IMG/VR virus record: IMGVR_UViG_3300050821_002270
Span: 1-56,244 of that record
Strand: one strand, 5' to 3'
Source: a virus
DNA: 56,244 nt
Under the pieces are notes generated by a model. It was not told the origin of the DNA, ran no database searches, and saw only the letters and a list, made by a program, of their open reading frames with translations. Below, piece after piece: positions 7,127 to 53,622 of this stretch. The translations under genes and the position numbers were made by a program. The first letter of the stretch is position 1. Each line of letters begins with the position of its first letter.

Positions 7127-7252
7127 CTAGTCGTTTCCGTGGGGCGGTGGCGGATCGCCAGAGCCAGAGTCATCCGGCTTCGGCCCAGGATGCGGAACCG
7201 GCTCAGGAACCGGATGCGGAGGGAATTCCTCGGGAACGTGAGTCTCGGACAT
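7127..7252 (-). CDS. Small proline-rich protein
   Basis: 41 residues from ATG 7252, preceded by GGAG at a suitable distance. Pro and acidic residues dominate (PPHPVPEPVPHPGPKPDD, DPPPPHGND). It ends 14 bases before the multi-span gene. It was too short for standard ORF calling. Disordered; role unknown. Confidence 0.55.
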   Translation of the reverse strand: MSETHVPEEFPPHPVPEPVPHPGPKPDDSGSGDPPPPHGND

Positions 7253-7342
7253 AGCTCGCTCCATGTTTCAGCCGGAAGATAGCGGAAACGTCCTAGCGTT
7301 GCTAGGGGCGCAACCTATCGGGAGCGTGGCCGTTGAGAGAGC

Positions 7343-7525
7343 ATGGGACTCATCGAACTCATCATCGTGCTGGCCGTCCTCGGATGCGCTTGGATGCTAT
7401 TCAACCGTTACGTTCCGGCGCCAGAGCCGGTGAAAACAATCGTGGGCGTCGTCGTGGCAGTCGTGATGATCGTGATCCTGCTTCAGTGGCTATTGCCGTT
7501 CGCGGGTCTTCACGGGCGGCTCTAG
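7343..7525 (+). CDS. Two-span small membrane protein, isolated on the plus strand
   Basis: 60 residues with two membrane spans (LIELIIVLAVLGCAWMLF and TIVGVVVAVVMIVILLQWLL) joined by a short NRYVPAPEP hairpin. The pattern matches the small Thivi_2564-type membrane family found in bacteria and phages. It is the only rightward gene between 2424 and 12301 and must use its own promoter; GAGAG precedes the ATG. A membrane or superinfection role is possible but unproven. Confidence 0.7.
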   Translation: MGLIELIIVLAVLGCAWMLFNRYVPAPEPVKTIVGVVVAVVMIVILLQWLLPFAGLHGRL

Positions 7526-10147: not shown

Positions 10148-10897
10148 CTATGACACCAGAGTTCCGCTGAACAGGCTACTCCAGACGCCGTCCCCAGCTC
10201 CATGATAAATCCCAACGTTCTTGGAACCGCTTCCGCCGCTGACCGCAAGCTGGACCCTCGCCACGTCCCCTACCGCCATGGGCAAGAGCGCCGCAACCTG
10301 TAGGGCCGCATTCCCCGCTCCATCCAGGTTCGCTATGCCGCTGGACCTGACAATGGTATTCTGGGTCGTGGCGATCTGGAGAACCGCCGTGGCGTGACCC
10401 GTCATGCTCGTCGCGGTGACGATAGCCTCGAAGTTGTAGTTGCCGGCCAGGGGGGCAGTGAATATCCCGTTCGCCGGATTGTAAGCCCCGGAGTTGGTAA
10501 GCGCGGTGTCAAAGATCACCGTCTGAACCGTCCCGTCCCCGGTCTGATTGGTCTGGTCCGCGCTCATTCTCGCCGAGAACACACAGGACCCGGAAAGCAG
10601 GTTGTCCACCGTCCAGATTGGAGTCGTCGGCGGGTCGGTGTCGGTTGGGGAGGTGAAGACCAGCTTATAGGCAATGCCGGTCGGAATCCATATGCCAACG
10701 CTGGCTCCGAAGGAGTTTTGGGGCTCGCCGCGCGCATTAAGCACGATGGGGTTGGTTTGGGCAGTACTTCCGGTTGAGTCGGTGTATGTTGTTATCTTTG
10801 TGGTTGTGGCCGCCGCGTAGATAAACAGCTTTCCGCCCAAGGCTGGCACGCCGTTGATAAAGAAATCTTGTACGGCGACGAGGCTTAAGGCTGGCAT
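10148..10897 (-). CDS. Tail fibre protein with C-terminal C1q-like domain
   Basis: 249 residues. The first ~100 residues match a recurrent podovirus fibre/spike N-terminal module: FFINGVPALGGKLFIYAA, YTDSTGSTAQTNPIVLNARG, then GIWIPTGIAYKLVF. From about residue 115 a C1q/TNF-like jelly-roll module follows (VIFDTALTNSGAYNPANGIF, TAPLAGNYNFEA), similar to the C-terminus of the 21869-23644 protein. It is likely a trimeric virion adhesin. Unlike its two downstream neighbours it has no signal peptide. The start touches the ATP-grasp gene's end. Confidence 0.8.
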   Translation of the reverse strand: MPALSLVAVQDFFINGVPALGGKLFIYAAATTTKITTYTDSTGSTAQTNPIVLNARGEPQNSFGASVGIWIPTGIAYKLVFTSPTDTDPPTTPIWTVDNLLSGSCVFSARMSADQTNQTGDGTVQTVIFDTALTNSGAYNPANGIFTAPLAGNYNFEAIVTATSMTGHATAVLQIATTQNTIVRSSGIANLDGAGNAALQVAALLPMAVGDVARVQLAVSGGSGSKNVGIYHGAGDGVWSSLFSGTLVS

Positions 10898-12219
10898 TAC
10901 ACCCCCGCTTCCATTTGGAGGGCATACCCATGCCGGTGGAGATCATCTAGCACAGCCACGATTTTGTCCCCGCCATCCGTTCTGAACTCCATGTCGCAGA
11001 AGCGGACCGCCTTCACAGCCTTATACGCCTTTGCCTTGGCCTTTTCGACCGTTGTTCCGACACCAGTAGCGACGCAGACCATTTCCCCCGCCGTCTGATA
11101 GGTCATGTCCTCTGCAACCTTATCACCCCTCATGACCGGCCCCTTGGCGCGCATCATCATGGCTGGGTGGATTTGATCGCGGACATCGTCAATCCCGCTC
11201 ACGGGATTGCCATCAACGCACTCGGGCTTGCCGTTGAACTGAGGCCACGGTGGCTGGGCGAGAACCACGCCCATAGACGGCCTGTAGTCCACAGACAGCG
11301 AGTCCTTGCCATCCAGCAAATCTCGCATCCACTGAACCGGGTCCCCCTTGTGCGTCGCCGTCTGCAAATAGAACGCGGGCCACCCCAAGCGCTGGGTTAG
11401 CTCAAACGGCCACGCCTTCCCCTTCTTGTCGATGCCACAGTTTATGGCAGTATCCCCGACATGCTTCAGCGCCACCATAACCGACTCTAGCGGCTTCAGC
11501 ATCTCGTCGGACATCTTTTCTTCTTCCTCATACTGGCATAAAGTGATCATTTCTCCAGTATTCGGGCCGATTTCTTCGTTCATGAGCTTTTTATGCTCAA
11601 AGGCTATTTGTGGTGTATTTATAAAACCTTCCGGTCCGCACCACATACTTACTCCCATCTCGCAATACATGTCGATTTTTTCTTGCAACATGCACTTTGA
11701 GTCGAGCCGCATTCCACGCGCCTTCTGGCGTCGGAGCCAGCCGACGAGTTCGGCCGGATCGTGAGCGATGAACGAAAGACTCTTGTCCTCTTCCGACCCC
11801 ATCGTCTTGAAGACATACGGATCGTTGGCCTTCATGGCGAAGGCTTCGGCCTCGTCTAGGGTGTTGAACATCTGGTAGTGGGGAAGGTCCAGCCCGGCGG
11901 CCTGCATGACTTTCATGCCCGCTTCCCGGTCGATTTCAAGCTGGGCAGAAGCGTAGGACGGCCCGAAGACCGGATAACCAAAATCGCGCCACCGCTCCAG
12001 CTCGGCCAAAAACTTAGCGTTCCCGGTCGGAAGGATCAGTCCGTCCTTCCCGCACCACTTGAGGCTGGCCTGAAGGTCCGTGACGCGCTTCACGCCCTTG
12101 AAGCCATCGCCGATGGGGTGCTTGGTCTGCTGGAATAGCTGGACTTCGTGACCGGCCTCAACGCAACGGATTGCGAAGTCCAGACCGGCTAGTTCCGTAT
12201 CGACGATGCAGACTTTGAT
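10897..12219 (-). CDS. PurD-like ATP-grasp enzyme (phosphoribosylamine-glycine ligase family)
   Basis: About 440 residues. It begins IKVCIVDTELAGLDFAIRC, the pre-ATP-grasp Rossmann-like strand of PurD enzymes, and continues with VFGPSYASAQLEIDREAGMK, YVFKTMGSEEDKSLSF and a late INCGIDKKGKAWPFELTQRL, matching the ATP-grasp core and metal-binding end. PurD joins phosphoribosylamine to glycine in purine synthesis, but the phage form is divergent and its substrate is unknown. The frame has no ATG near its N-terminus: the fold begins at an ATC codon (12219), 5 bases after GGGAGG. TTG 12282 is the only other in-frame start and would translate through a hairpin. It sits among fibre genes. Confidence 0.75.
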   Translation of the reverse strand: MKVCIVDTELAGLDFAIRCVEAGHEVQLFQQTKHPIGDGFKGVKRVTDLQASLKWCGKDGLILPTGNAKFLAELERWRDFGYPVFGPSYASAQLEIDREAGMKVMQAAGLDLPHYQMFNTLDEAEAFAMKANDPYVFKTMGSEEDKSLSFIAHDPAELVGWLRRQKARGMRLDSKCMLQEKIDMYCEMGVSMWCGPEGFINTPQIAFEHKKLMNEEIGPNTGEMITLCQYEEEEKMSDEMLKPLESVMVALKHVGDTAINCGIDKKGKAWPFELTQRLGWPAFYLQTATHKGDPVQWMRDLLDGKDSLSVDYRPSMGVVLAQPPWPQFNGKPECVDGNPVSGIDDVRDQIHPAMMMRAKGPVMRGDKVAEDMTYQTAGEMVCVATGVGTTVEKAKAKAYKAVKAVRFCDMEFRTDGGDKIVAVLDDLHRHGYALQMEAGV

Positions 12220-12246
12220 GTCAGCCTCCCGCCATGCTAAGGAGGT

Positions 12247-12276
12247 GGGGGCGCCGCGTTGACGCGCGGCGCCCCC
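12247..12276. promoter_or_regulatory. Perfect 12-bp GC hairpin in the ATP-grasp leader
   Basis: GGGGGCGCCGCG (12247-12258) and CGCGGCGCCCCC (12265-12276) form a perfect 12-bp stem with a 6-base loop. Leftward, it lies just upstream of CCTCC (12245-12241), which can pair with the GGAGG ahead of the presumed AUC start. No T-run follows, so a terminator is unlikely; translational control is more plausible. Confidence 0.6.
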
Positions 12277-12301
12277 GATCAATCAGGCTTAGGAGAGCCC
12301 G

Positions 12302-27385: not shown

Positions 27386-28573
27386 TCAATTAGATAAGCG
27401 AACCCCTAGGTCATTGTAATACTGGGCGGTGCCGTAAAGAACATCAATCCTCGTGGGCAGCACATCGTTGGTGACGTCATATGCTCTAATAATCCGCATC
27501 GAAATCCCCTTCCACATCTCACGACTACGGAAGTCCACCCCATCGGGCAGTTCGAGCGGGACGGTGACGAGGCCGATGGCGTCGCGACAGAAGCCCAGGT
27601 TGTTGAAGTAGGACGTGCTCTTGACCGGGGCAGTGGCGGCGCTGACCGTGGCGAGGTTGGCGGGCGAGGCGGAGGCGTTCTGATAGGCGCCCGAGATGTT
27701 GATTGACGGGAAGATGGACAGGGTGGCGTTACCGCCGGAGTCAGAGTTCACCGCGCTGGTGATGACGAAGTCCTTCAGGGCGCCGGTCGATTGGCGGTTC
27801 TGCGGGTTGACTTCGAAGACGCCCGCGAAGGTCACGACGTCGCCCGCGTTGAACAGGCCGGTGATGGAAGGCGTCCAGCCATTGGTGACGATGAGGTTGC
27901 CGGTCTGATTGGCGCCGTTGACCACGCCAGCGCCCGCGAAGGCTCCCCACATATGGGCTTGGGCGTTCTGGTCGACGTAGATCGAGAAGTTGGCGATGTT
28001 GGCGAGGAAGCCCTTCAGGGCCGGTTCGGACACCATGGTCACGAACAGGTTGCTGACACCGTTGGCAAGCGACCAGTAGGCCGCCGGGTTCAGGACCAAG
28101 GTCCGCCCATCCTGAGGAGCCGCAAGCTCGTCAAGCCGCTGGCCGACGTTGGCGAGGGATTGGAAGCTGGCGGGGAGGGTGCCCGCCGTACCCACGAGGT
28201 TGGAGAACGAGGAGAAGTTGGAGAAGACGGTGTAGTCAATCGAGTTGGCGATGGTGACCGCAGCGGGCTTCAGGTAGCGCTCGCTGAACTCCTCGATGGT
28301 GAGGGTCAAATCCTGCGAGGAGAACTGGAAATCGACGTGTTGCTGGTTCGAGATGGTGATCGAGGTGGAGGGCTCGGAGATGTTCTGGATGACCAGGCCA
28401 GGCCCGTTCGTGATGACGAAGCGGTTGGGCTTGCGGATCGTGATCGCGTTGCCGATCTTGACGAACTGGTTCTCAAACTGGCGATTGACCTTGCCGGCCA
28501 TCACCAGATTGTTCTCCAGAATCACCAAGGTCTCCTTGGTGATCAGCGACGGAGTAAGAAGCGTATTGCTCAT
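27386..28573 (-). CDS. Major capsid protein, P22 coat (gp5) family
   Basis: 395 residues. LLTPSLITKETLVILENNLV, then GKVNRQFENQF and GNAITIRKPNRF, are the N-arm and first strands of the P22 coat family. SQDLTLTIEEFSERYLKPAA followed by VTIANSID is the conserved spine-helix region. The C-terminus contains FRSREMWKGISMRIIRAYDV, also typical. It assembles the HK97-fold shell on the scaffold encoded just upstream. The segment at about 70-112 is duplicated in the small 33569-33823 protein. Confidence 0.93.
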   Translation of the reverse strand: MSNTLLTPSLITKETLVILENNLVMAGKVNRQFENQFVKIGNAITIRKPNRFVITNGPGLVIQNISEPSTSITISNQQHVDFQFSSQDLTLTIEEFSERYLKPAAVTIANSIDYTVFSNFSSFSNLVGTAGTLPASFQSLANVGQRLDELAAPQDGRTLVLNPAAYWSLANGVSNLFVTMVSEPALKGFLANIANFSIYVDQNAQAHMWGAFAGAGVVNGANQTGNLIVTNGWTPSITGLFNAGDVVTFAGVFEVNPQNRQSTGALKDFVITSAVNSDSGGNATLSIFPSINISGAYQNASASPANLATVSAATAPVKSTSYFNNLGFCRDAIGLVTVPLELPDGVDFRSREMWKGISMRIIRAYDVTNDVLPTRIDVLYGTAQYYNDLGVRLSN

Positions 28574-28611: not shown

Positions 28612-29550
28612 CTAGTTTGCTTTCCTGTTCGAAGAGGCGCGGTGGGCTGCGTACTCTTCCATGGTCATCTCGTTGGGGTCTTTCGGCCCCGAGTTATTGC
28701 GTGCGGCCAGAGGCTTGATCGGAGCTGGCTTGGGGGGCGGAGGGGCGGCCAGCTTCGCGCTGATCCTGCCAATCTCGTACACCTGCTTAGCCGGGCTCAG
28801 ACCTGTGATCCGCTCCGCCACCTCCGGGTTCTGGCCCAGGTAGTAGGCAATCGCGGGTCCGTCCTCCGCCTCCAAGAGCGCCTGAGTCATCACCGCACTG
28901 ACCTTGACGTCCTCGCTGAAGACATCATCGAAGTCCGGATGTTGCTCCTCGAAAGCCGCCACGCGCTCGTTGTAGGAATCGCGCAGGGTTTCGAATTGGC
29001 GAACTCGGTCTTGCTGAACCTGTTCTTGCTGGGCCTCAGCCTTGGCTTTCGCGGAGGCCTGTCGACCCGACCAGTCCACGAGCGCGTTGTCGTAAGCCTC
29101 TGGGTCCGTGAAGGTCTCCCGCGTCGGGCGGGGATCGTCCTTCGGTTGGTCCCTTTCGCCGACTAGCTTGGCCACCGTTTCGGTGAGCTGTGCCAGTTGC
29201 GTTTGGAGGGCTTGGCGCTCTTGTTCAGCGGCTTGGCGTTTGTTGCGCTCGCGCGCAAAGGCGGCGCGTTGCTGCGGGGAGGTCTTATCCTTCCCCTCGC
29301 CGGCCTCTTTGCCCTCGTCGGGCTGCGGGGGACCGTCCCCCTCGCCTTCGACCTTAGCCGAAGTATCCGCAGTATCGGGGGCATTATCTTTATTGTCAAC
29401 TACCTCTGCTTCAGCCTCTTCTTGGGGCTTGGTGAGGTCAATGACCGGCTCGTCAGAAACTGAGGACAGCGACGGCTTGCCTACATTCACCAGCACATCA
29501 GCGTAGGGAATGCGGTCGCCGGGATTGGTGGCGGTGGCGAGTTCAACCAT
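28612..29550 (-). CDS. Scaffolding protein
   Basis: 312 residues, very charged. The N-terminal ~100 are acidic and low-complexity (EEAEAEVVDNKDNAPDTAD). A long coiled coil at about 95-180 follows (ARERNKRQAAEQERQALQTQ). The C-terminus is Pro/Lys-rich with basic residues (PPPKPAPIKPLAA, AHRASSNRK), typical of scaffold domains that bind coat. Its location between portal and coat is exactly that of P22 gp8. Confidence 0.8.
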   Translation of the reverse strand: MVELATATNPGDRIPYADVLVNVGKPSLSSVSDEPVIDLTKPQEEAEAEVVDNKDNAPDTADTSAKVEGEGDGPPQPDEGKEAGEGKDKTSPQQRAAFARERNKRQAAEQERQALQTQLAQLTETVAKLVGERDQPKDDPRPTRETFTDPEAYDNALVDWSGRQASAKAKAEAQQEQVQQDRVRQFETLRDSYNERVAAFEEQHPDFDDVFSEDVKVSAVMTQALLEAEDGPAIAYYLGQNPEVAERITGLSPAKQVYEIGRISAKLAAPPPPKPAPIKPLAARNNSGPKDPNEMTMEEYAAHRASSNRKAN

Positions 29551-29788
29551 TGGTCACGTCCTTGGGGGCAGTAGCGGCTTGAATGCGCTTGTCAATCAGG
29601 GTCCTGATACCATCACAGGCCAAATCCGCCCAATCCCCCAGGCGGTCGCGAAGGGCATGCAGGTCTGGGGCGATCTCGTGGATGAACCGATCAGTGCCCA
29701 CGTCGTAGGTCTTCAGCACATAGCCGTTTTCCGCCACAATGATCTCGGGGGGCTTAATGACGTACTCAAACCGAGGGGCCTCAGCCAT
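29543..29788 (-). CDS. Small hypothetical protein between portal and scaffold
   Basis: 81 residues from ATG 29788, which overlaps the portal stop region; an in-frame start at 29830 would lie inside portal. It has FEYVIKPPEIIVAENGYVLK and HALRDRLGDWADLACDGIRT. It overlaps the scaffold start by 8 bases. Function unknown; its position suggests a head-assembly accessory. Confidence 0.65.
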   Translation of the reverse strand: MAEAPRFEYVIKPPEIIVAENGYVLKTYDVGTDRFIHEIAPDLHALRDRLGDWADLACDGIRTLIDKRIQAATAPKDVTNG

Positions 29789-32120
29789 CGGCCTTGGCTC
29801 CAGACGATGCCGGCTCAGGTTCGGGTTCATGGGCCATTTTATCCAAGTCTAGTTCATGGTCATGTTCTGCGGAGGCGCGGTCGAGAATGTGGGCGTGATG
29901 AGCCAGCGCGTGATCATGGGTCTCTGCCCGGCGAGCGCGCATCTCGGTCATGATGATATCAGCCGTAGCCCTGGCCTGCTCTGCGGCGATCTTCTTGGAG
30001 CTATCGTCGGACTTGACGAGCATGGCCAGAAGCTTGCTTTCGAAATTCGTCTCGATAGCCTGCAATTTCACATCGCGATCCGCCGCCTTGTCCTGAAGTG
30101 CCTTCATGGCCTGTTGCAGCTGAAGCGTCAGGTCTTTGGACTGCTTTTCGAGGTTCTGGATCAGCGCTTGGATTTGCGGCGGCACGTCCTTGACGTCTGC
30201 CGTGAGCATCTGGGGCGAAATGGCCTTGGCGAGCCTGGCCGCGATCTTCTCAGCCCCGGGCCAATCCATCTCGCTGGCGATGAGGTCCATGACCAGTTGC
30301 GCCGTCTGAGGCATGGCCTTGACGAACGCCATCATGGACTCGGACGCTTCCTGACGCTTGGTGGCGTAGGACGGTCCAATATCCACCGTCACCCCGTACT
30401 CACCAAATGAGGGGTTGAAGAACCTCTGAATACCCTTGGGGCCCTGCACTTCCTTGTAGGCCGACTCCAGATTGGGATCGATGGTGACGTTCTGCTCCGT
30501 GTCGTCCTCGCGCAGGATCGTCATGACCTGCTTGCGGTTGTAGACCTTGCCGATGGCCTGCACGAGCTGTCTGCCCAGGAATGTCAGCGCGCGGCCTAGA
30601 TTGTCGTAGTAGTGGAACGCCCCAATATCCGTGTGACGCCCAAGCTCGCGGATCGCCCGACCGGACTCATCGTTCATGCGCTCCTGCATGGTAGCATCAA
30701 ACCGGATGCCGGTCGTAGCTATCATGTTCTGTTCGGCCTGCTGTTTGGCCACCACTACCCCGTCGGGCACGCCTGGCGGGGGTTGGCGCTGCGGGGGTGG
30801 AGCAACGTTCCCATCTACAGACGTGCCCTTGTAGGTCAGATATGGCCTTGACCGCGTGTTGGCGGTCTTCCATTCTTGCTCGTGGCCTTCGAACTGTCCC
30901 TCTTCCCCGATGTAGGGGGCCTTAGGAGCAAGGGCGACGAATTCGGTGATCATCGAATCCCAATAATTCGCCATCCGCTGGGCGTCCTTAGCGTCGCGGA
31001 TGATGCCAGATAGGACCACCTTGCCCTCGATATCAATCTCGTCCCCAATCACAGGGATGAGCGGAATCCAGTTCCCGATCCACTCGTTGGATTCGAGGAC
31101 CTCCAAGGCCGTGGCCTTGTAATACATCACCTTGCGTTCGTAGCTCTCACGGTCTTCGATGATATCGACCGCGCCCTTTTTGATCCGAGCTTGTGTCACT
31201 TCGTCCAAATCGTCCCATAGGCCCGTGTACCCCGTGGACAAAGACACAAGCCGCTTGGGCTTCTGGACAACCTCGAAATACTCCGCGACCCGGATGCCGT
31301 CCTTGGTGATCCAGTTCTTGTAGCGCTCGCCTTGGCCGCCCTGATCCCATGGGATGAGTTGGGCTTTGGGATACTCCAGCTCGAACTCGTCTTCCGGGAT
31401 GACCTCGGTTACGAAGCCGAAGCGAGCGTCTGACCCATCTGGCTCTTGCCTATCTGGGTCTAGGTAGACCGTGAAGGGATTGCGCACGCGCCGGATGACC
31501 AGCACTTGATCGAAGCTGTTCTCCGACTTCCATTCCGTGCCTAGGCGGATGTAGCCCCACCCCGACGTGACAGCGTCATCAAACGCTGTGTCATAGGCAA
31601 TGTCGGCATGGCTATCGCGCTCGATGGAGCGGATCAGGCCCTTGTACATCTTCGCCGCCTCCTTGTCGGAGCGCGAGCCTACGGGACTGATGTTGATGGA
31701 CGGGCGGTTTTCTCTGGCCGGGTTGGTGATCTGGTGGACGAAGGTCTTCATCCGGTTGTTGGTTAGGCAGGGTCGCTTGTCGGTGTTGCGCTGCTGCGCG
31801 ACGTCCGCCGGCCACTGATTACCCGCCTTGAACTTGCGGTCATCGACGGCGGCTTTACGGTTGTCCGACTCCGCCGCAATACATCGCTCCATACGCTTGC
31901 GCATACGGGCGATGACCTTTTGATCTTCCTCGGCTGAGCCCTTCTTGTCCTTCTTGTCGTCGTGATCGGGCGGAATGTCTGGCCCGACCTTGTCGCCCCT
32001 ACCCCTGATGACGTTGTCGTTGGGCTTGATCTTGTTCATGCCGGGCAGCACTTCAGGCAGGCTTAGCGTGCCCTTGGTGCGGGGCTTCTTGGGCGCGGCT
32101 GATTGCGGCTGGTCAACCAC
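29781..32120 (-). CDS. Portal protein, P22 gp1 family
   Basis: 779 residues from GTG 32120. The core RKAAVDDRKFKAGNQWPADV, NNRMKTFVHQITNPARENRP and TSGWGYIRLGTEW-type segments belong to the P22 portal family, longer than the ~725 of P22. A charged N-terminal extension (DDKKDKKGSAEEDQ) and a His/Ala-rich C-terminal helix (MRARRAETHDHALAHHAHIL) are present; the latter may extend the barrel seen in P22. Twelve subunits form the DNA entry ring and bind gp4-like adaptors. Confidence 0.92.
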   Translation of the reverse strand: MVDQPQSAAPKKPRTKGTLSLPEVLPGMNKIKPNDNVIRGRGDKVGPDIPPDHDDKKDKKGSAEEDQKVIARMRKRMERCIAAESDNRKAAVDDRKFKAGNQWPADVAQQRNTDKRPCLTNNRMKTFVHQITNPARENRPSINISPVGSRSDKEAAKMYKGLIRSIERDSHADIAYDTAFDDAVTSGWGYIRLGTEWKSENSFDQVLVIRRVRNPFTVYLDPDRQEPDGSDARFGFVTEVIPEDEFELEYPKAQLIPWDQGGQGERYKNWITKDGIRVAEYFEVVQKPKRLVSLSTGYTGLWDDLDEVTQARIKKGAVDIIEDRESYERKVMYYKATALEVLESNEWIGNWIPLIPVIGDEIDIEGKVVLSGIIRDAKDAQRMANYWDSMITEFVALAPKAPYIGEEGQFEGHEQEWKTANTRSRPYLTYKGTSVDGNVAPPPQRQPPPGVPDGVVVAKQQAEQNMIATTGIRFDATMQERMNDESGRAIRELGRHTDIGAFHYYDNLGRALTFLGRQLVQAIGKVYNRKQVMTILREDDTEQNVTIDPNLESAYKEVQGPKGIQRFFNPSFGEYGVTVDIGPSYATKRQEASESMMAFVKAMPQTAQLVMDLIASEMDWPGAEKIAARLAKAISPQMLTADVKDVPPQIQALIQNLEKQSKDLTLQLQQAMKALQDKAADRDVKLQAIETNFESKLLAMLVKSDDSSKKIAAEQARATADIIMTEMRARRAETHDHALAHHAHILDRASAEHDHELDLDKMAHEPEPEPASSGAKADG

Positions 32121-33112: not shown

Positions 33113-33375
33113 AGTCCAAGAGCCTCGCCAAACAAGTTCCCAAGCGCCGCTGAAAACGGCGACGCGCCTGCGTTATACATGGCCTGTTGGTTCAGTTGGA
33201 GACTAGGCGTGGTGTAGGTTCCGACCATGTTGGCCATACCGGCGTTTTGCATCCATCCGGCCGTCAGAAACCATCCTGACAACTCCCGGACGGGAGTTCT
33301 GCGTGCGTTCGCGGCTCGGCAATAACGACCCGGCCGCTCCGGCTCGATCTCTGCGTAACCAAGGTCGTCGCTCAT
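33109..33375 (-). CDS. Hypothetical protein
   Basis: 88 residues, coupled at both ends by 4-base overlaps. The N-terminus is charged (YAEIEPERPGRYCRAANARR) and the C-terminal half is rich in Ala, Asn, Gln and Met (QLNQQAMYNAGASPFSAALG). No motif is recognised. Confidence 0.6.
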   Translation of the reverse strand: MSDDLGYAEIEPERPGRYCRAANARRTPVRELSGWFLTAGWMQNAGMANMVGTYTTPSLQLNQQAMYNAGASPFSAALGNLFGEALGL

Positions 33376-33578
33376 ATGATAACCTCTCCCGGCGCATCTT
33401 CAGCGTCGATAGCGTCCAGTATAGCCGCCATCGCCCGCTCGCGCATCTCTCGGTAAGCCCTGCCTTCCGTCTCCGTAAGCATGGCATAATACTCCTGTCC
33501 CCGCTCGTCCGCCATACTGAGCCGTATGACTTCACAGTCCGTCAGCGGGGAGTAGGATTGGAACTGGATTACGCGCAA
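33372..33578 (-). CDS. Hypothetical protein
   Basis: 68 residues with a beta-rich start (MRVIQFQSYSPLTDCEVIRL) and a helical end (AYREMRERAMAAILDAIDAE). Start overlaps the coat-fragment gene by 10 bases and stop overlaps the next by 4. Function unknown. Confidence 0.65.
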   Translation of the reverse strand: MRVIQFQSYSPLTDCEVIRLSMADERGQEYYAMLTETEGRAYREMRERAMAAILDAIDAEDAPGEVII

Positions 33579-33823
33579 GCTTGCTCGACCATTTGAGACG
33601 CGAGCGCATTCATCGCCGGCATGAGGTATCGCTCCGAATACTCATCAATGGTAAGGGCGAGTTCGGAATCGGCGGTGAACGTTGCTGCGACAGGCGTGGC
33701 GTGCGCAATCGTGACCGTCTCGGCGGCGACCGGCCGCGCCAAAGCGGCGGCAGGCGCAACGGCCACACCGAACAGCAGCCCCAGAAATCCACGTCGGCCG
33801 AACCCGCTCACGATGCCATCCAT
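33569..33823 (-). CDS. Twin-arginine leader fused to a coat-protein-like fragment
   Basis: 84 residues. The N-terminus GFGRRGFLGLLFGVAVAPAA is a twin-arginine (Tat) type signal with an ALA-like cleavage region near 28-34. The remaining ~50 residues, TVTIAHATPVAATF then SELALTIDEYSERYLMPAMN, align with coat residues about 70-112 (SITISNQQHVDFQF, QDLTLTIEEFSERYLKPAAV), with about half the aligned residues identical over the LTI(E/D)E(F/Y)SERYL region. Thus a capsid fragment appears to have gained an export-type leader. It overlaps terminase by 16 bases. Function unknown; not a remnant, as the frame is clean. Confidence 0.7.
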   Translation of the reverse strand: MDGIVSGFGRRGFLGLLFGVAVAPAAALARPVAAETVTIAHATPVAATFTADSELALTIDEYSERYLMPAMNALASQMVEQACA

Positions 33824-35385
33824 CCACCAGAGCTATCGCTCACCCGCTCAGGCTCCTCTTTGGGCCTCGCCTGGCGAATGGCCTTCTTCACCCATTCGCC
33901 GCGACGATGCCAAGCCATGACAACCGAGTCCGCCTCGTCTGGCGATGATCCAACGCGGTCCTTCACTTGGCCCTTTTCTTCAAGCAGGATGTTGATGCCT
34001 CGAACCTTATACCTCACGGCGCATAATCCCGCCACCATTCTAGGGTCGGGCGGTAGCATGATGTCCTCGCCGCTCTCAGGGTCCAACGCCTCTCGAAACG
34101 CCCAATACATCTCGGCCCTTAGATTGGCATAACCCAAGCGCCCATCCTTAGACTTCTTCGCCGATCCCGCCGAGAACACCAGCGATGTACAGGCGATGTT
34201 GTGTTCACGCTTCAGCGCCGACACCACGCCTGAGCCCCAACCTCCGGTTCCATCAACGCTCATGTCGGCGTCGTTCTTCTGAACCACCACCATCATAGTC
34301 GCGACCTCGGCGATGTCCTCAATCTCAGCCGCCTTCTTGGTCACGATGGGCGCGAACCAGTTCTCTTCGTGCAGCGCAGCCACCGCGACCTTGTCAGGGC
34401 CGCCCTTGGCTGGGTCTGCGGCTACCGCCAGCATCCGTCTGCGCTTGGCTGGCGCGTTCTTCCACCGCTCCTGAGCCAGCTTCACCCACTCCGAGGGGAT
34501 GACCTGCCATTCATGGTCTTCCCTGCCTGCCATGAAGTCGCCGTAGAGAAGCTGCGACCTCAGCGGCTCGGGCATGTTCTCCAGCGTGGCCCGGTAGTTC
34601 GTGTCGTTCAGATATGGGTTGTCGGCGAGCAGGGCGGGGATAAAGGTGCGAGACTGAGCGGTATAGCTCTGGCCCTTGTGCTCATAGCGTCCAGGCCCAT
34701 CGACCCACACCACATCGCTGTCTGGCCTGATGGCCCACCTCAGCTCGCCAGGCATCGCGGGGCTTGGATACATCGGGTCCAGCCAAGGCGCGAACCACTC
34801 GACCAGCCAATCGCCCTCGCCACCTATCGGAGGGTTGGACGCGAACACGATGCGCGAGTGCTGGTCAGGATCGGTAGACCTCAGCCAGCCCATGACGAAC
34901 GCTACCTTGGCCTTGTCAAGTTGCCCGGCCTCATCGAAGCAAATCAGGTCATGCGCCCGGCCCGTCCAGCCCTTCTCGGCTCCCGGCTTGTCGAGGGCGC
35001 CACACTCGATCAGCATGTTCTTGCGGCGCATGACCATGTCTTGGCCGTTGTAGCCGTCGCGTCCCGCGATATCCACAAGCCGCTCCTCAACGCCCCTCAG
35101 GTCCACGTAGGCTCGGCGGAAAACAACGGTTCGCTGGTGCTTGGTCAGGGCCAGGCCCAACAGAAGGTCGGTCTTGCCCCCGCCGGCCGCGCCTCCGTAA
35201 AGCAGGATGTCCGCGTTGGATTCGTAGGCTTGGGTCTGAGGCCCTGGGTTTGGTATCCACGGCGCGCTCAGCTCAGGGGCCAGCAGCTCATCTATCTCAG
35301 CCAGTTGCTTGGGCGAGAGTTCGGCTAGGATGCGCTCTAGGTCGGTTAGGGAGGTCACTCGGGAGGTGGCGGCAGGGGCATCCAA
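33808..35385 (-). CDS. Terminase large subunit
   Basis: 525 residues from TTG 35385, 17 bases after the upstream stop; GTG 35358 is an alternative, and the longer frame to 35499 overlaps the upstream gene. ATPase: Walker A YGGAAGGGKT (about 63-72), Walker B LICFDEAG, and coupling motif RIVFASNPP. Nuclease: AADPAKGGPDKVA, MSVDGTGGWGSG and the final acidic DEADSVVMAW, the RNase H-like triad. The motor packages DNA into P22-type procapsids and makes headful cuts; the headful mechanism is inferred from the P22-like head. Confidence 0.92.
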   Translation of the reverse strand: MDAPAATSRVTSLTDLERILAELSPKQLAEIDELLAPELSAPWIPNPGPQTQAYESNADILLYGGAAGGGKTDLLLGLALTKHQRTVVFRRAYVDLRGVEERLVDIAGRDGYNGQDMVMRRKNMLIECGALDKPGAEKGWTGRAHDLICFDEAGQLDKAKVAFVMGWLRSTDPDQHSRIVFASNPPIGGEGDWLVEWFAPWLDPMYPSPAMPGELRWAIRPDSDVVWVDGPGRYEHKGQSYTAQSRTFIPALLADNPYLNDTNYRATLENMPEPLRSQLLYGDFMAGREDHEWQVIPSEWVKLAQERWKNAPAKRRRMLAVAADPAKGGPDKVAVAALHEENWFAPIVTKKAAEIEDIAEVATMMVVVQKNDADMSVDGTGGWGSGVVSALKREHNIACTSLVFSAGSAKKSKDGRLGYANLRAEMYWAFREALDPESGEDIMLPPDPRMVAGLCAVRYKVRGINILLEEKGQVKDRVGSSPDEADSVVMAWHRRGEWVKKAIRQARPKEEPERVSDSSGGWMAS

Positions 35386-35402
35386 TGCGTCGGCTTGTCT
35401 AG

Positions 35403-35585
35403 CTAATAGTCTACATCGTGACCGCCCACCCACGATAGGTGAAAGTACTCGCTGGTCCCGAATGTGACGAAACGACCAACCGAAATCATGTCCGGCCAAA
35501 GAAGCTTGTCGCCTCCGCCCGCTTGAAACACCAAGAAGTCGCTGCCGTCTCTAGGCGCGGTCTTTATCGGCTGCCACTCGCTCAT
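35403..35585 (-). CDS. DUF551-like small protein
   Basis: 60 residues from ATG 35585. WQPIKTAPRDGSDFLVFQ is the signature of the DUF551-type phage proteins, followed by FHLSWVGGHD. The frame is open further upstream to ATG 35777, which overlaps the previous stop, so either a 124-residue protein or a separate upstream piece is possible. The upstream part has AEQMHRRAQKAEAALAR and a (CTATCG)3 microsatellite coding LSLSLS. Confidence 0.65.
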   Translation of the reverse strand: MSEWQPIKTAPRDGSDFLVFQAGGGDKLLWPDMISVGRFVTFGTSEYFHLSWVGGHDVDY

Positions 35586-52869: not shown

Positions 52870-53622
52870 ATGGCCGCTAAGGCTAAAGAGGCTACCGAGG
52901 TGGTGATTCACGGCGTGAAGGGATTCGATAAAGACCTTCGATGCTTGAATTTCCCGTTTTCGCTGGGCGAGACCTTCAAACACGACGGCCCCGTGAAGGC
53001 TTGCGCGAGCGGCTTCCACTGCGTGACGGGCCATCCCCTCGCCGTCTTCGGCTACTACGCCCCCGCTGGTTCTCGCTTCTGCAAGGTGGAGATTAGTGGC
53101 AAAACCCACTCCGATGATGATACCAAAACCGCCGCCGAAATCCTAGCGGTGGGCCGCGAAATCGGCATCACCGATCTGGTCAACGAGGCGATTTCGTGGG
53201 TGACGGCGCGCAGCCATCCTGAAGGCATTCACGCCACTGGAGACCAAGGCGCGTCCTCCGCCACTGGAACCCGAGGCGCGTCCTCCGCCACTGGATACCA
53301 AGGCGCGTCCTCCGCCACTGGAACCCAAGGCGCGTCCTCCGCCACTGGATACCAAGGCGCGTCCTCCGCCACTGGAGACCAAGGCGCGTCCTCCGCCACT
53401 GGATACCAAGGCGCGTCCTCCGCCACTGGAACCCGAGGCGCGGCTCTCGCTATCGGCTACGAAAGCAAAGTCATGGGGGCCGAAGGGAACGTACTGTTCT
53501 CCATCGAGCGAACGGAGAATGGCGACGTGCTATCGGCCGCGTGCGGGATCGTGGGTCAGAAAGGCATCAAAGCCGGACGCTGGTACAGGTCCGTGCGTGG
53601 CAAGCTTGTGGAGGCGGTGTGA
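52870..53622 (+). CDS. DUF7666-like protein with nonapeptide repeats
   Basis: 250 residues. The N-terminal ~110 residues are the conserved domain: [40 protein letters not shown] and [20 protein letters not shown]. Residues about 123-194 are eight copies of a nine-residue repeat, ATG(D/T/Y)(Q/R)GASS, predicted to form a small beta-solenoid. The C-terminus ([28 protein letters not shown]) is a further conserved part. Found in many phages; function unknown. Confidence 0.8.
53236..53451 (+). repeat. 27-bp tandem coding repeat, 8 copies
   Basis: Seven near-identical 27-base units (ACTGGA, variable codons, GGCGCGTCCTCCGCC core) plus a diverged eighth. Variation is confined to two codons per unit (GAC/ACC/TAC and CAA/CGA). 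Order of variants: DQ, TR, YQ, TQ, YQ, DQ, YQ, TR. Expansion by slippage or recombination is expected. Confidence 0.95.

Follow-up and report, generated by a model that had tools for sequence, protein, structure and literature searches.

Capsid-protein homologues that alter capsid assembly are known mainly from satellites. One example is Ccm of SaPIbov5, a homologue of the capsid protein by which capsid assembly is redirected (PMC8569155). Assembly can also be blocked: the small prophage protein Tab, whose gene lies between TerS and TerL, prevents other phages from assembling virions (PMC10884400). The window analysed here is an IMG/VR virus record of 56,244 bases, in which the minus-strand head genes follow the order TerL, small genes, portal, scaffold and coat. 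The small gene located directly behind the terminase large subunit encodes a protein that joins a twin-arginine-like leader to a fragment of the coat (Table 1).

When compared to the P22-type coat (PF11651, phrog_283), the fragment shares 47 in-register residues with about 40-45% identity to the family. However, this coat has about 400 aa, whereas the window protein has 80 aa and carries an RR/hydrophobic leader instead of the N-arm, the rest of the P-domain, the A-domain and the I-domain. Like Ccm, it is a second divergent capsid-protein homologue besides the main coat, but Ccm is satellite-encoded and occupies pentameric capsomers, whereas the window protein is a fragment encoded in the phage's own late operon, its effect on assembly being a prediction. 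It has no A-domain and lacks most of the P-domain, which speaks against its taking a capsomer position as Ccm does; a Ccm-like way of working is possible by analogy. The likeness to Tab is one of size and position, with no sequence relation claimed: both are small proteins encoded beside phage terminase genes, and Tab may serve as a model for blocking the assembly of competitors, although it acts on the tape measure protein and has its own promoter and an anti-Tab. With twin-arginine leader proteins, the window protein shares the RRGFLG-type n-region, the hydrophobic stretch and the small residues before the junction. In the literature searched, with partial coverage, neither a Tat substrate with a coat fragment as its mature part nor a description of small coat-fragment genes was found.

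Table 1. Features of the window and of related loci. Positions refer to the window unless a locus handle is given.
Feature	Position	Strand	Evidence or setting
Terminase large subunit (TerL), upstream partner of the small gene	33808-35499	-	PHROG phrog_979, E 1.5e-39
Small gene for an 80-aa protein of RR leader and coat fragment; GTG start (probable)	33569-33811	-	GTGA overlap; junction common to L102/L078
GTGA, small-gene start overlapping the TerL stop	33808-33811	-	Junction comparison
Leader VSGFGRRGFLGLLFGVAVAPAAALARPVAA, twin-arginine-like or membrane anchor (predicted)	33722-33811	-	Sequence; maximum 18-residue hydropathy 2.07
Coat-like segment TVTIAHATPVAATFTADSELALTIDEYSERYLMPAMNALASQMVEQA, distal E-loop strand and spine-helix start	33578-33718	-	BLASTP, HMM, hhalign
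Downstream neighbour of the small gene, 68 aa, 'YWSPxxG...GEV' homologue	33372-33578	-	ORF lists, by eye
P22-type portal	29781-32120	-	PF16510, E 1.7e-164
Scaffolding protein	28612-29550	-	Between portal and coat; PF09306, E 0.0018, below the family cut-off
P22-type major coat protein	27386-28573	-	PF11651, E 2.7e-39
Own-coat segment matching the small gene, coat residues 71-112	28238-28363	-	40% amino acid and 52% nucleotide identity
L136, RR-leader ORF, 70 aa, MEHSRRGLFGLLAAAPLVPVFAKAPPSVTIANHKFVDFVISDADWPGAEAVAKRLVDHCVAHETERVTLG	7149-7361	+	Just before the portal
L019, ORF, 130 aa	15808-16200	+	Between portal and scaffold
L005, ORF, 115 aa	4366-4713	+	Between TerL and portal
L003, small gene, 58 aa	4363-4539		TerL-portal interval
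L008, small gene, 58 aa	4556-4732		TerL-portal interval
L125, ORF, 109 aa	13692-14021	-	Directly upstream of TerS

The original prediction, made from the sequence, described an intact 84-residue frame coupled to its neighbours, with a Tat-type signal at the N terminus and about 50 remaining residues that align with coat residues about 70-112. The frame (33569-33823, minus strand) is real and intact, and its coupling is made likely by the GTGA that overlaps the TerL stop, but the start and the strand were revised. An ATG at 33823 in the same frame gives 84 aa; the GTG at 33811 is the likelier start because its GTGA overlaps the TerL stop and because the junction, TGGATGGC[AG]TC[AG]TGAGC, is common to the window, L102 and L078, with ATGA starting the next gene in the latter two. 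The gene thus probably starts at this GTG and encodes the 80-aa protein VSGFGRRGFLGLLFGVAVAPAAALARPVAA-ETVTIAHATPVAATFTADSELALTIDEYSERYLMPAMNALASQMVEQACA, and it is likely to be translationally coupled to TerL via GTGA. Its GC content by codon position is 0.70/0.54/0.70; the minimum at the second position is seen in the neighbouring genes too. At the N terminus, RRGFLG is followed by an uncharged hydrophobic stretch of 18 residues, the combination expected of a Tat substrate, and a SPase-like V-A-A/E lies exactly at the junction between the leader and the coat part. Leaders of this type were found in 12 of the 8,908 small ORFs of the fetched loci (all frames). Judged by these features, the first 30 residues or so are predicted to be a textbook leader, either of the twin-arginine type, as originally proposed, or a membrane anchor.

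The coat alignment of the original prediction was also recovered, both the quoted peptide and its alignment being present, and the match extends over small-protein residues 32-78 and coat residues about 71-118 (47 residues, in register). A BLASTP comparison with the window's own coat gave 38% identity over 45 residues (E 4e-7). Since some of the loci had been fetched by a pattern taken from the query motif and are biased toward it, the key statistics use coats fetched through TerL. With an HMM of eight coats, which were taken from the window or selected by TerL similarity and did not include the query, the small ORF scored 28.8 bits, whereas none of 20,000 shuffles exceeded 11.2; it ranked second among all window ORFs, behind the coat only (E 3.5e-8). 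With a profile of 18 coat segments the score was 50.6 bits, and E was 2.4e-13 when the ORFs of every fetched locus were searched; the profile alignment proposed as a check was significant by hhalign against 11 coats (98.2%, P 3.9e-14, 47 columns). From this match, residues 32-78 are assigned by descent to the P22-type coat family. The protein covers only coat residues about 71-118 in 80 aa, without the full HK97 fold, and by this reading it is a coat fragment and not a functional capsid subunit. The AF2 model of the small protein contains one helix (residues 55-79).

The fragment scored 43.9 bits against other coats and 33.1 bits against its own coat. A recent duplication of the window's own coat was rejected because nucleotide identity in the aligned part is just 52%. 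A continuation of the coat fragment through a frameshift into the downstream neighbour was also rejected (5-9 bits), that gene having its own homologues. Members of the 'YWSPxxG...GEV' small family to which this neighbour belongs were observed in L038, L039, L078, L102 and L136-L147, where their place is behind TerL or ahead of the portal; the family corresponds to none in the databases.

The small ORF had no significant match in Pfam, NCBIfam, solved structures or the PADLOC anti-phage defence models, remained below significance in PHROGs (E 0.02-0.07; phrog_283, E 0.07) and had no match at E 10 among cultured phages and plasmids. The nearest cultured relatives of the window TerL are 40-44% identical to it, and the records of Caulobacter phage RapA, Acidovorax AP1, BPP-1 and Limnohabitans DC33, which are cultured relatives by TerL, contained no coat-like match at E 0.5 at any position. 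Pattern searches with the small ORF returned full-length coats only, and no close homologue of the gene was found in the viral and genome scans. In 385 alphaproteobacterial genomes, the A2 coat profile detected only full-length coats, in 4 genomes; PHROG families 37875 and 18858 were not found in these genomes, where the control likewise had no match.

Short ORFs with coat pieces were found by scanning the fetched loci and then the portal relatives. Significant pieces in small coding-strand ORFs near TerL, portal or scaffold were present in the window, L019 and L005, and weaker ones in L125, L102, L147 and L039. The coat part retained differs between these genes, the recurring one being the E-loop strand with the spine start. 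The ORF of L019, whose TerL is 58% identical to that of the window, joins coat residues 81-117 (25.2 bits) to 335-382 (21.0 bits), and with its N-arm-like start and two distant coat pieces it has the appearance of a miniature coat without the middle. The ORF of L005 corresponds to the C-terminal strands (coat residues 337-382, 28.9 bits), with 51% identity over 45 residues to the coat of L089; this fragment scored 48.5 against other coats and 40.4 against its own, whereas for the pieces of L019 and L136 the own coat is the best match or close to it. The coat resemblance of the 58-aa gene of L003 and L008 is marginal.

The small ORFs of L102 and L078 lie directly after TerL, at the same junction as the window gene; that of L147 likewise follows TerL immediately and is placed one gene before the portal, and that of L039 is two genes after TerL. 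Together with the L125 ORF, they encode proteins of about 100 aa with an N-arm-like start (xLTPxxIxxE) and a spine-start motif (LxLSxDEFSxRxLxP). The coat match is short (16-30 residues) in L125, L102, L147 and L039, and five leaderless small proteins, with the window ORF left out, aligned to the same coat stretch by hhalign with P 3.9e-11 over 30 columns. The AF2 model of the L102 protein is alpha-beta-beta-beta-alpha with moderate confidence (pTM 0.61), and Foldseek with this model found no match at E <= 0.001 and nothing coat-like in the viral and PDB libraries. According to this model, proteins of the L102 type may share only a motif with the coat. A coat gene split by a stop codon into frames of 160 and 246 aa was observed in L096 (4824-6047, plus strand), either a sequencing error or a split coat.

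The combination of RR leader and coat fragment was also sought in other phages, with a partial outcome: L136, with a portal 64% identical to that of the window, offers a weaker second case, and the remaining coat-fragment ORFs (L102/L078, L125, L147, L039, L019 and L005) are leaderless. Behind the RR leader of the L136 protein, SVTIANHKFVDFVISDAD matches the E-loop strand SVTINNQKHVDFQFSSQD of its own coat at 11 of 18 positions, a value equalled by none of 5,000 shuffles. The coat HMM did not detect this ORF, and the window and L136 small proteins showed no significant alignment to each other. L136 is a probable parallel to the window chimera, as judged from sequence. The C-terminal half of the L136 protein, DWPGAEAVAKRL, resembles the portal stretch DWPGAEKIAARL, marginally by profile; a portal fragment (DWPGAE) in this protein was considered unproven, with a pairwise E of 6e-7 and a portal HMM E of 0.22. 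Because other coat-fragment ORFs of the same genome region carry no leader, the RR leader is taken to be a variant and not a defining feature of these genes. The original interpretation is supported in part: the two-part architecture of the window gene is real, but it falls within a broader and heterogeneous group of small genes with coat pieces, most of them leaderless.

Our preferred explanation, which is tentative and held with rather less than even confidence, is that the window carries a small, translationally coupled late gene for a coat-derived peptide that most likely acts on capsid assembly. The gene itself, its coat homology, its neighbourhood and the coat pieces in other small ORFs are established. 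Within the packaging/head module of P22-type phages it would stand beside several other short genes for coat fragments, its coat part having been taken long ago from a coat gene, more likely that of another phage lineage than the resident one, and the leader having replaced the coat portion upstream of the E-loop strand. The fragment retains the parts through which HK97-fold subunits pack (PMC5701804), namely the E-loop strand and the beginning of the spine helix, so that, if expressed, it could dock on assemblies of coat, scaffold or portal. Once docked, it might modulate assembly, or block that of a competitor whose coat matches, and the hydrophobic RR leader might tether it to the inner membrane or send it through Tat. 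Such a role is plausible because Ccm and Tab are published precedents. That the window and L005 fragments are nearer to foreign coats would suit a competitor-directed role, but this is only a hint because L019 and L136 lack such a preference. The main weakness of the assembly explanation is that an exported fragment would miss the cytoplasmic coat, and a working Tat signal is hard to reconcile with an assembly role.

Alternatively, the gene could be a non-functional or transient by-product of mosaicism, a coat-gene fragment that landed behind TerL, came to be joined in frame with leader-like sequence and has been tolerated. This is a serious alternative, though on the unlikely side. Gene fragments accumulate in the packaging-portal interval, neighbouring phages keep different coat parts, the window gene lacks a close homologue in the viral and genome scans, and a module junction is nearby, as indicated by the different nearest relatives of TerL and of portal and coat. 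However, the frame is intact and the GTGA coupling tight, L102 and L078 have a similar small gene at the same junction, L136 provides a second RR-leader case, and purifying selection was strong in the 58-aa TerL-portal gene of L003/L008 (pN/pS 0.07). The L102/L078 gene gave a pN/pS of 0.63 (0.47 in the coat-like half), which indicates weak purifying selection; these figures belong to genes of relatives, the window gene having no close homologue for comparison.

An envelope factor, exported through Tat or anchored in the membrane (superinfection exclusion, or an accessory of ejection or lysis), in which the coat part is a helical head with no coat-related job, would account for the strong RR-hydrophobic leader and for the SPase-like site at the coat-part junction, and the order of leader and then strand recurs in L136. 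It is nevertheless unlikely, when the leaderless positional relatives and the location among late structural genes rather than lysogeny genes are considered, and it leaves the strong coat similarity unexplained. Capsid sensing is established for CapRel and for a capsid-sensing TIR system, which recognise the major capsid protein (PMC9712102, PMC11312562), and a fragment that retains a conserved coat stretch could act as a decoy, occupying such a sensor without triggering it. We consider this very improbable: for a decoy, co-expression with TerL would be late, the coat stretch in question has no known sensor, PADLOC gave no match and a membrane leader would be a hindrance. A chance or convergent helix motif (DEFSERxxxP), with no common descent with the coat, would agree with the short matches of L125, L102, L147 and L039 and with their predicted fold, which is not coat-like, but it is scarcely credible for the window ORF, whose 47-residue match has P 4e-14 and is not approached by any shuffle; here convergence is refuted unless the coat profile itself is biased.

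Since different small genes with coat fragments occupy this part of the genome in related viruses, the window gene appears to represent a putative class of coat mimics about which little is known, as predicted from sequence comparison. In its widest form, P22-type phages would have a class of terminase-adjacent small coat mimics that dock on the coat lattice of competitors or tune their own assembly, some of them tethered to the membrane or exported through Tat by a twin-arginine leader, a generalization that we rate as quite unlikely. If it is true, phages would have in such coat fragments, encoded beside the packaging motor and sometimes preceded by an export-type leader, a simple means to interfere with or regulate capsid assembly, and a part of the numerous small genes in late operons that lack an explanation would be accounted for.

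The nearest relatives of the window TerL are cultured Rauchvirus-type phages and contigs such as L016-L020, and those of portal and coat belong to another group (L038, L136); because the two sets differ, a module junction is placed between TerL and portal/coat. A homologue of the GcrA cell-cycle regulator (PF07750; 50596-51141, minus strand) suggests an alphaproteobacterial host of the Caulobacter kind. An ATP-grasp protein with weak similarity to phosphoribosylglycinamide synthetase is encoded among the tail genes (10897-12282, minus strand), and the protein encoded at 52870-53622 (plus strand) contains a region of tandem G-A-S-S-A-T-G repeats.
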